Origin: Altererythrobacter sp. H2 | Lineage (GTDB): Bacteria > Pseudomonadota > Alphaproteobacteria > Sphingomonadales > Sphingomonadaceae | DNA length: 64,000 nucleotides | Direction: 5' to 3' | Assembly (NCBI RefSeq): GCF_035319885.1 | Contig: NZ_CP141285.1 | Coordinates: 1,364,001-1,428,000, forward strand | In this document: positions 10,850 to 14,024 of the stretch, piece after piece | Layout of the letters: every line of letters begins with the position of its first letter | Numbering within the stretch: the stretch's first letter is position 1 | Notes under the pieces: generated by a model | Told to the model about the DNA's origin: nothing | Database searches by the model: none | Seen by the model: the letters and a program-made list of their open reading frames with translations, nothing else | Position numbers and translations under genes: made by a program

Positions 10850-12371
10850 ATGGTGCGGTTCGGCTTGGGGAAACGCAGACTGGCCGGGCTGGCCCTGCTG
10901 ACGGTTGCAGCAGCGGGAGCGGGGCAGGCCCAATCCCAGTCCCGTTCCGCCGCCGATCCCGATCCCGGTTCCTCCCAGACGTCTCAGGGCGATGTGGCGG
11001 TTACCATCTACAACAACGGGCAGGCACTGGTGCAGGACGTGCGCCAGCTGGCCATCGGCCAGGGGCGCAGCCGGATCGAATTTCCCGACGTGTCGGCCCA
11101 GATCCGGCCCGAGACGCTCAGCTTCTTCGCCGATGACACCACGATTGCGGAACAGAACTTCGACTTCGACCTGCTGACGCCCACCAAGATGATGGAAAAG
11201 GCGATCGGGCAGACCGTCACCCTGCTGCGCACCAACCCGGCGACCGGCGTGGAGACGCGCGAACGTGCTACGGTGCTTTCGACCGCAGGCGGGGTGGTGG
11301 TGCAGATCGGCAACCGGATCGAAGTGCTGCGCGATGATGGCTTGCCGGTGCGGGTGATCTTTGACCGTGTGCCGCCCAACCTGCGCGCCCGGCCGACCCT
11401 TTCCGTCAATATCGAGAGCAGCCGTGCAGGTTCGCGCCCGGCTGCAATCCGTTACCTGACGCCGGGCCTTGGCTGGAACGCGGATTATGTGGCGCTCTAT
11501 GACGAGGCCAAGGGCACGATCGACATGCAGGGCTGGGTCACCCTGACCAACAATACCGGCACCACCTTTCATCGCGCCGAAACGCTGCTGGTGGCGGGCA
11601 GCCCCGGCGGCGGCGGGCGGCGCGGCAATCCCGGCATGATTCGCGCAGGCACGCAGAATTCGGGCCGCGAGCAGCTGGGCGACTTCTACCTCTATCCGAT
11701 CAGCGAACGGACCACGATCGCCAATGCCCAGACCAAGCAGGTCAGCTTCCTCGACGTGCAGGCAGTCCCGGCAAAGAAGGTCTATCGCCGCGACGTGTAC
11801 TGGATGAACAACGACGCCCAGCCGGTGCAGGCGAGCAGCGAGATCGCCTTTTCGACCGCGCGTGACCAGGGACTGGGCGATGCCCTGCCAGCGGGGACGG
11901 TTCGGTTCTACCAGCGCGACCGCCGGGGATCGCCCCAGTTCATCGGCGAGAACGGCATCGGCCACACCCCGATGGGCAGCGAGCTGAGCCTGCGGACCGG
12001 CGATGCGTTTGACGTGTTCGTCCAGGCCGAAGTCGAGAGCCGGCAGGAGATTACCGCGTCCGAATGGGAGAAATCGGCCCGATACCGCGTGATCCGCGAT
12101 GGCCAGGTGGTCGAACAGGTCGAGGTCGAGCGGGCCCAGGACGTTCTACCGCACCACCATGCGTTACAAGCTGACCAACGCCAAGGCGACGCCGGTGGAG
12201 GTCGACCTGGTCCAGGCAGGTCTTGGCCAGTACTGGTGGGGCTATGATTACCGGATCGTCAGCGAGGACGTGCCGGGTGAACAGATCAACTTCGACCGGC
12301 GCAAATGGATGGTGTCCGTGCCGGCAGAAGGCGAGCGGACGATCCGCGTAACCTACGAAACCCGGTACTGA
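10850..12371 (+). pseudogene. DUF4139 secreted protein, interrupted by a one-base frameshift
   Basis: A signal peptide (RRLAGLALLTVAAAGAGQAQ) precedes the DUF4139-type region (VAVTIYNNGQALVQDVRQL, then the LGWNADYVALYDEAKG core). The frame stays open to 12247, but family-like sequence switches frame at 12135-12137. One frame gives VEVERAQDVLPHH. The frame one base later gives RTFYRTTMRYKLTNAK and then a normal C-terminus ending RKWMVSVPAEGERTIRVTYETRY at 12371. Removing one C of the CCC run restores the frame exactly. The GTG at 10829 is rejected as start because GGGGGAGG lies just before ATG 10850. A real mutation and a sequencing error cannot be separated here. Confidence 0.8.
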
Positions 12372-12386: not shown

Positions 12387-14024
12387 ATGCGCCTGATCAC
12401 TGCCGCCCTGGCCCTGCTGTCGCTGGCAAGCCCGTTGCAGGCGCGCGAGGTGGTGGACGCCTCCGCGCCGCAGGCCATGTCGGTCACGCTCTACCGCGAC
12501 CCGTCGCGCGGCACGGGCGAGGCGATGAACCGTGACTGGCCGCAAGGCTTCGCGATGATCAGTGAAACCCGCACTGTTACCCTGCCGCCGGGCGAATCGA
12601 CCGTGCGCTTCGAAGGCGTGGCTGAAGGCATGGTGGGGGTGACCGCGATCGTCACCGGCCTGCCGGGCGGCACGATCGAGATGAACCGCAACGCGGAGCT
12701 GCTTTCGCCCGCCGCGCTGGTCAACGGCGCGCTGGGCAACCGGGTCACCATTACCCGCACCAACCCTGCCACCGGCAAGGCGGTGAGCGAAGAGGCGGTC
12801 GTCCGCACCCGCGCCGATGGCGGGCTGGTGCTCCAGACCGGGGCCGGGTTCGAGGCGGTGCGCTGCGCCGGCTTGCCCGAGGGGCTGACTTTTGACCGCA
12901 TTCCCGCAGGGCTTTCCGCCAGCCCGGTGTTCAGCATCGATACCCGCGATGCAGGTGGGGGGACCTATACCGTCACCCTGACCTATCTCGCCTGGGGGTT
13001 TGACTGGCAGGCCAACTATGTCGCCACCCTGGCCGAGTCGCGCGACGACGCGAAGGGTGACGGCGAGTTTACGATGCGGCTGCTGAGCTGGCTGACCCTG
13101 CTCAACGACAACGGGCAATCATTTCCCGATGCCGAACTGATGGTGATCGCCGGCACGCTCAACGTCACCAGCAATTACCGGGATCTGGCCGAACCGCCGG
13201 TGGCCGATCCCCTGCGGCTGACCTGCTACCCGCTGGGGAGCACCGCCGAGGGGTCGGGCATGCCGTTCTACGGGTCCTATCCCCCTCCGCCGCCACCGCC
13301 GCCCCCAGCTCCTGCGATGATGGCGGATGCGGCGGAAATCATGGTTACCGGATCGCGGATGAACCGGATCGTCGTGACAGCTCAGAAGGTTCGCACGGCC
13401 GAGGAAGAGCAGCTGGGCGATCTCAAGCTTTACCGGGTGCCGTTCCCGGTCACCGTGGCGGCCAAGGGGCTCAAGCAGGTTGCCTTCCTGAGCAAGGACG
13501 CGGTGCGGGCGCGCTATCTCTACCGGATCGGGTGCGATCCGTGGGAAAGGTATGCCGCCACCGACGACGTGGGAGACCTGGAACAGGCCGAGGTCCTGCT
13601 GGTCACGCGCAACGAGATGAAGAAAGGGCTCGGCGTAGCTCTGCCGCAGGGCGCGATGGCGGTGTTCGAGCCGGGCGCGCTCGGCACCCAGCTGGTCGCC
13701 GAAACCGATCTGCGTGACTATCCCGTGGGCCAGGATGTCGAGCTGGAGCTGTCGGACAGTGCACAGGTGTTCAGCCAGTGCGCCTACAACGGGCCGGGTG
13801 ACCCGCCCGAAGACGGCGCGAAGTGGCGAAGGATGCGGGCCGAGATCAGCAATGCCAATAGCCATCCGGTGCGGGTGCGCGTGGTGCTGGGCGGGGCGGG
13901 CGAGATCGAGGCCCGCTGGCCGCGCCGCAAGACCGAGGTCAGGGACGGCGCGCTCGTGGTCGAGGTCACGGTGCCGGCGAACAGGACCGAGCAGTTCGAC
14001 TGGCAGCTGCGCGAAACCGGCTAG
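12387..14024 (+). CDS. DUF4139 domain secreted protein with TonB-box-like insert
   Basis: A 545-residue paralogue of the preceding gene, 15 bases downstream. Signal peptide MRLITAALALLSLASPLQAREV. It has the family's NRVTITRTNPATGKAV, LPEGLTFDRIPAGLSASPVFSI and LAWGFDWQANYVATLAESRDD blocks, and a C-terminal beta-rich region. In the middle (residues about 295-330) a poly-proline run is followed by AAEIMVTGSRMNRIVVTAQKV, which resembles TonB-box sequences of Sphingomonad receptors (see findings). Likely periplasmic or outer-membrane associated; function unknown. Confidence 0.82.
   Translation: MRLITAALALLSLASPLQAREVVDASAPQAMSVTLYRDPSRGTGEAMNRDWPQGFAMISETRTVTLPPGESTVRFEGVAEGMVGVTAIVTGLPGGTIEMNRNAELLSPAALVNGALGNRVTITRTNPATGKAVSEEAVVRTRADGGLVLQTGAGFEAVRCAGLPEGLTFDRIPAGLSASPVFSIDTRDAGGGTYTVTLTYLAWGFDWQANYVATLAESRDDAKGDGEFTMRLLSWLTLLNDNGQSFPDAELMVIAGTLNVTSNYRDLAEPPVADPLRLTCYPLGSTAEGSGMPFYGSYPPPPPPPPPAPAMMADAAEIMVTGSRMNRIVVTAQKVRTAEEEQLGDLKLYRVPFPVTVAAKGLKQVAFLSKDAVRARYLYRIGCDPWERYAATDDVGDLEQAEVLLVTRNEMKKGLGVALPQGAMAVFEPGALGTQLVAETDLRDYPVGQDVELELSDSAQVFSQCAYNGPGDPPEDGAKWRRMRAEISNANSHPVRVRVVLGGAGEIEARWPRRKTEVRDGALVVEVTVPANRTEQFDWQLRETG

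Follow-up and report, generated by a model that had tools for sequence, protein, structure and literature searches.

The open reading frame at 12387–14024 on the plus strand of the window (the whole 64,000-nucleotide stretch of the Altererythrobacter sp. H2 genome analysed here) encodes a probably exported protein of 545 amino acids, which carries a conserved receptor-type TonB box in an internal proline-rich linker. Judged from its letters, the linker insert is a receptor-type TonB-box cassette, a reading that we adopt because of the conservation of the motif, the matches to a receptor profile, a DNA match to receptor genes in one genome and the pattern of VTA residues and basic pairs. We consider it fairly probable that the box serves docking on TonB, which would make the protein a resident, non-transporter client of TonB.

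The protein, probably periplasmic, is delimited by its single reading frame, by 80 related loci and by a structure model. By eye, the N-terminus reads as a probable Sec signal peptide (MRLITAALALLSLASPLQA, 12387–12443, plus strand as for all features of the window given below) with no lipobox cysteine, and because of this signal peptide the protein would be placed in the periplasm, most likely in soluble form. The AlphaFold2 model (mean pLDDT 83.9) was computed from 81 aligned sequences, 17 of which were paralogues. Residues 2–12 are modelled as a helix, followed by an ordered beta-rich part (residues 21–261, 12447–13169, block means mostly 70–97), a proline-rich linker of low confidence (residues 262–338, 13170–13400, block means 42–68) that is strongly variable in orthologues, and a second, C-terminal ordered beta-rich part (residues 339–545, 13401–14021, block means mostly above 90). 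Stretches with pLDDT below 50 within the linker cover residues 282–295, 311–317 and 322–335. A poly-proline run (P299–P307, 13281–13307) is followed, in the same frame and as had been predicted originally, by EIMVTGSR (E317–R324, 13335–13358) and IVVTAQK (residues 328–334, 13368–13388). Read from their frames, the downstream neighbour is recA, and a histidine kinase gene precedes the tandem pair of which the 545-aa gene is the second member.

Assignment of the 545-aa protein as a TonB-dependent receptor was rejected, given its two ordered beta-rich parts and no Pfam match to Plug (PF07715) or barrel (PF00593) at E ≤ 1. The TonB box of a receptor stands at the N-terminus of the barrel, whereas the one described here lies in an internal loop (residues 317–324) of a beta-rich protein and is not N-terminal to a plug domain. 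Pfam and NCBIfam offered no useful name and no toxin-like match, sequence searches of solved structures gave no hit at E ≤ 1, and a Foldseek search of the model against the PDB gave none at E ≤ 0.001. Fold likeness from VIA-align (best Z 7.2, to parts of arabinofuranosidases, with aminopeptidases at about 6) was not used as a clue to function because a Z of 7.2 falls in the range that the tool calls common.

Among the orthologues the linker varies strongly, with the exception of one motif. The pattern [IV].VT[GA] is present in 128/138 distinct linkers, with R or K at position +2 in 123/138. Within a subset of 129 distinct linkers the pattern occurs in 120, against a mean of 0.64 and a maximum of 2 in 200 shuffles, and R or K two residues after the motif in 115 (shuffled mean 0.05). 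The full set adds four loci with a divergent anchor (L247, L250, L252 and L260, all with the motif), L248 and L298–L300, which likewise have it, and L222, which does not. Excluded before counting were L002–L011 (duplicates or fragments from genomes of the same genus), L071 and L073 (masked or truncated linker), L241, L244 and L245 (linker given as N), a short extra frame in L249 without a readable linker, and L242, in which the anchor was not recognised; L242 contains IVVTG, and its inclusion would give 129/139. Seven of the ten linkers lacking the motif hold near variants (ILTG, RVSA, SVTS, VVTS, IVSG, LVVTG and VVSA), and a recognisable box is absent from three linkers, those of L222, L239 and one tandem copy of genome G147 (L246). 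V320 and T321 are invariant across 26 aligned orthologues, and the codons for the valine and threonine of the motif vary among linkers. Outside the linker, [IV].VT[GA].[RK] was found in 0/79 orthologues. With VTG or VTA kept to this extent, the insert did not turn out to be a low-complexity stretch without conservation of these residues.

Genome G147 (L246 and L247) holds three copies of the gene, two of them in tandem. In that pair, one member carries the receptor-like cassette DIVVTAERIRQYNLTSPSPITAI and its neighbour only poly-proline. The third copy reads IIVTGSR, so these copies form a natural set for functional comparison.

A motif of this kind might also be an internal strand packing against the domains of the protein itself, its likeness to a TonB box being convergent, and the predicted model offers something for this reading: I318–M319 are assigned to a strand of two residues, and residues 318–321 exceed pLDDT 50 between flanks that fall below it (311–317 and 322–335). 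However, the block means around EIMVTGSR are 48 and 42, between 6 and 35 residues separate the motif from the next domain in different relatives, and the motif precedes the proline run in some relatives and follows it in others. Likeness to receptors moreover runs on beyond the strand, and we regard an internal strand as very unlikely.

Two TonB-box motifs had been proposed for this protein, and it is the first, EIMVTGSR, to which the conservation applies. IVVTAQK fits the receptor consensus but is not conserved, two motif matches being found in only 2/138 linkers, those of the window protein and of L253, and the extra match in L253 is a plug-strand-like VAVTA. Many orthologues show a plug-strand-like SVVTAEE roughly where IVVTAQK is located. 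Scored with the receptor profile described below, IVVTAQK obtained 6.4 bits and EIMVTGSR -0.2 bits, both non-significant. Because it fitted the receptor consensus, IVVTAQK may be an extra TonB box in this genome.

The upstream tandem paralogue (10850–12371) has no TonB box, and its frame is broken near 12145. In a genome of the same species (G001) this frame is open and encodes 517 aa, and the break is either a young pseudogene mutation or an assembly error. Paralogue and 545-aa protein share 31–35% identity in their aligned parts. Absence of the motif from the upstream copy, as stated in the original prediction, extends to the family, since [IV].VT[GA] occurs anywhere in 0/76 full-length upstream paralogues. 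The prediction had also labelled the 545-aa protein as DUF4139, a label that stands, weakly, for the paralogue only. DUF4139 (PF13598) matched the upstream paralogue with E 0.005, under the Pfam cut-off, and the paralogue of L012 with E 0.0013; it gave no match to the 545-aa protein at E ≤ 1, to any of nine tested orthologues at E ≤ 0.1, or in the window's own genome at E ≤ 0.001. Seventeen of the 81 alignment members matched DUF4139 at E ≤ 0.01, and the same alignment holds exactly 17 paralogues, the matching members not being itemised. From these comparisons the 545-aa protein is best described as the tandem sister, now diverged, of a DUF4139-like protein. Relative to the DUF4139/DUF4140 family (PF13598, PF13600), which the upstream paralogue matches weakly, the boxed proline-rich loop belongs to the second copy.

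The window's own genome contains 35 Plug matches, and most receptors that could be framed begin with a TonB-box-type segment. A hidden Markov model was made from 24 of these N-termini, comprising the TonB box and the start of the plug. It matched 22/81 orthologues at i-E ≤ 0.01, nine of them at ≤ 1e-4 and the best (L038) at 1.1e-9, and 21 of these 22 matches extended past the box to profile position 22–38. The remaining 59/81 orthologues, including the 545-aa protein of the window, did not reach i-E 0.01. No match was obtained in 395 shuffled controls or in 78 paralogue control rows, the latter consisting of the 76 full-length paralogues and two fragments, L083 and L071, with L071 in fact being the end of an orthologue. 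Profile-against-profile comparison gave a probability of 96% in local mode (P 3.8e-9, 27 columns) and 75% in global mode (P 3.2e-6, 38 columns). In L085 the insert reads DIVVTGIRASLANSVSIKRNSDSVV. With E < 1e-3 as the limit, its DNA matches six other sites of the same genome, the best of them at 79% over 77 bp with E 1.7e-12, and all six code for a Plug domain over the Pfam cut-off. Corresponding searches with L067 and L038 found nothing below E 0.01 in their genomes other than the query itself. Together with conservation inside a variable loop and with the unboxed paralogue, the plug-start likeness in 21 orthologues and the DNA match in one of three genomes lend good support to the original proposal of a receptor-type TonB box in an exported non-receptor.

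Further likeness to receptors lies in how residues of the insert go together. VTA was followed by x[RK][RK] in 10/22 inserts, compared with 3/53 (Fisher p 1.3e-4). When the association was examined in 15 independent pairs (starred branches), an average of 6.7 pairs changed the same way and 0.2 the opposite way (median p 0.031). In the receptors of the window's own genome VTA was likewise found with a basic pair, in 7/14 against 0/10 (p 0.019). With the linker left out of the tree, at least 19–20 changes between VTG and VTA are needed. A division of the cassettes into classes by regular expressions was abandoned, and the 17 class changes derived from it were not used because rows had been misplaced (L014 and L038 fell into 'GSR-SP', yet look like the VTA-xRR type). 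The linker of L213 reads MIVSGMRASLEVAK and looks like a receptor N-terminus of the GIRASL type.

Copying from a receptor gene can be recognised in one lineage; in the remaining lineages the cassette could be due either to repeated exchange or to shared selection. These data also bear on whether the insert is simply a piece of a receptor that recombination brought in and repeated exchange with the many receptor genes maintained, with no function in this protein. The insert of L085, which is such a fragment at the DNA level, the many VTG/VTA changes and a linker that tolerates much change all agree with capture. A functionless fragment would fit poorly, though, with a box that is kept nearly throughout the linkers when the remainder of the cassette is not, with the many inserts that are reduced to a few residues around IVVTGxR, and with two of three tested genomes having no nucleotide match to receptor genes. 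We judge capture without function to be distinctly unlikely.

TonB is regarded as the energiser of outer-membrane receptors, and in Bacteroidota plug-like segments are found on other periplasmic proteins. Docking on TonB is the reading that we find most likely for the 545-aa protein because its invariant valine and threonine are the same pair as in the receptor DdvT, because the window's own genome encodes two TonB C-terminal domains, and because the loop appears suited to the task. According to the accessible text of PMC6874591, receptors of Sphingobium SYK-6 have a TonB box of the form XXXT, growth on the substrate was reduced by each of the DdvT mutations V42A and T43A alone, and the V42A/T43A double mutant was at the level of the deletion. 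Compared with the sphingomonad receptor box given there (IIVT in DdvT, for example), the 545-aa family has the same core and valine-threonine pair, and some relatives continue into the start of the plug.

That continuation, seen in 21 orthologues, would also be compatible with a reader of receptor N-termini other than TonB, for instance a chaperone of the periplasm, a protease or an outer-membrane assembly route. The extension beyond the box is often missing, however, and what is invariant is the pair that matters in a sphingomonad receptor's TonB box, as far as the available part of PMC6874591 describes it; we therefore consider a different reader unlikely. Preferring TonB docking, we envisage the second tandem copy as a beta-rich exported protein whose long proline-rich loop carries the cassette, consisting of the box and, in certain lineages, of the plug start as well. 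Such a flexible loop would suit the presentation of a TonB-box strand. The protein may act as an adaptor or a regulator docked on TonB, possibly together with its tandem partner, and as a guess docking might tune the supply of TonB to receptors, receive a pulling force, or hold the tandem complex at TonB. Because nearly all of its relatives kept the box while the loop around it changed, the 545-aa protein is possibly a non-transporter partner of TonB; we infer that it binds TonB and that this binding is the reason for which the box was retained.

TonB boxes in non-receptors have a precedent. In the literature consulted, as far as its accessible text goes, those described belong to bacteriocins that exploit TonB, and colicin M and its relatives (ETLTV, PMC8469651) likewise carry the box in an unstructured stretch. 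Proteins of the colicin M type are, in the available part of that article, toxins that enter by way of the target cell's TonB. Unlike colicin M, the 545-aa gene is kept across a bacterial family, accompanied by a tandem partner, and its product has no recognised toxin domain. Within the accessible portions of the open-licence literature we found no study of the 545-aa protein family and no report of a TonB box in it or in TraB/GumN proteins, the latter being a weak negative.

In one scan 80 related loci were obtained, mostly from Erythrobacteraceae and relatives, with 52–87% identity; other related loci, from Sphingomonas, Novosphingobium and similar genera, had 36–44% identity. A family profile, which detects either paralogue, matched 137/296 genomes of the order and 41/240 genomes of the class. 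The class-wide search supplied 28 loci that were read. Three of them (L298, L299 and L300) had a boxed tandem second copy, L298 coming from the window's own family and L299 and L300 from families of the class other than this one. The remaining 25 loci had a family member without the motif, and one of these genomes (G405) has a second copy that also lacks it. L222 belongs to another family of the order and has a tandem pair without a box. On the simplest reading of these sequences, the box arrived with or after the duplication.

A search of the window's own genome at the DNA level used the pattern [VIM]VT[GA]x followed by a basic or similar residue. It found 95 places, and the reversed pattern 142, so there is no excess of the motif at the DNA level. 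Nine places directly upstream of Plug matches and the two of the window itself were left out, and the remaining 84 were read where the frame approximated the longest open reading frame, a procedure that a short exported frame under a longer antisense frame could escape. This left 30 rows that were judged by eye, among which the sole non-receptor with the motif in an exported part was a TraB/GumN-family protein (PF01963, E 9.3e-21; L191, 2478–3452, plus strand, corresponding to 3146977–3147951 of the genome).

Taken with the 545-aa family, this relative leads to a wider reading, which we put forward tentatively and rate at slightly below an even chance: that sphingomonads evolved resident non-transporter clients of TonB (the 545-aa family and a TraB/GumN subfamily), with cassettes copied from receptors in at least one lineage, and that the Ton motor works in the periplasm beyond nutrient import. 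If a resident protein does have a receptor-type TonB box, the Ton motor would have other customers, and the single valine-threonine pair makes testing direct. It would also give the 545-aa family its first testable role, and would mean that a short linear motif had moved into an unrelated protein and taken part of its original domain along.

In the TraB/GumN relative ANEIIVTAQRSGAPMW directly follows the signal peptide, and the mature N-terminus (EIIVTAQRSGAPMW) is TonB-box-like. The segment is kept in five close relatives from other genomes, one of which has lysine in place of threonine (IVVKAQRSGAPMW), and is found in 0/14 distant TraB/GumN relatives with a readable N-terminus. The subfamily reads LVGEI where these 14 distant relatives read L(F/L)GTxH.
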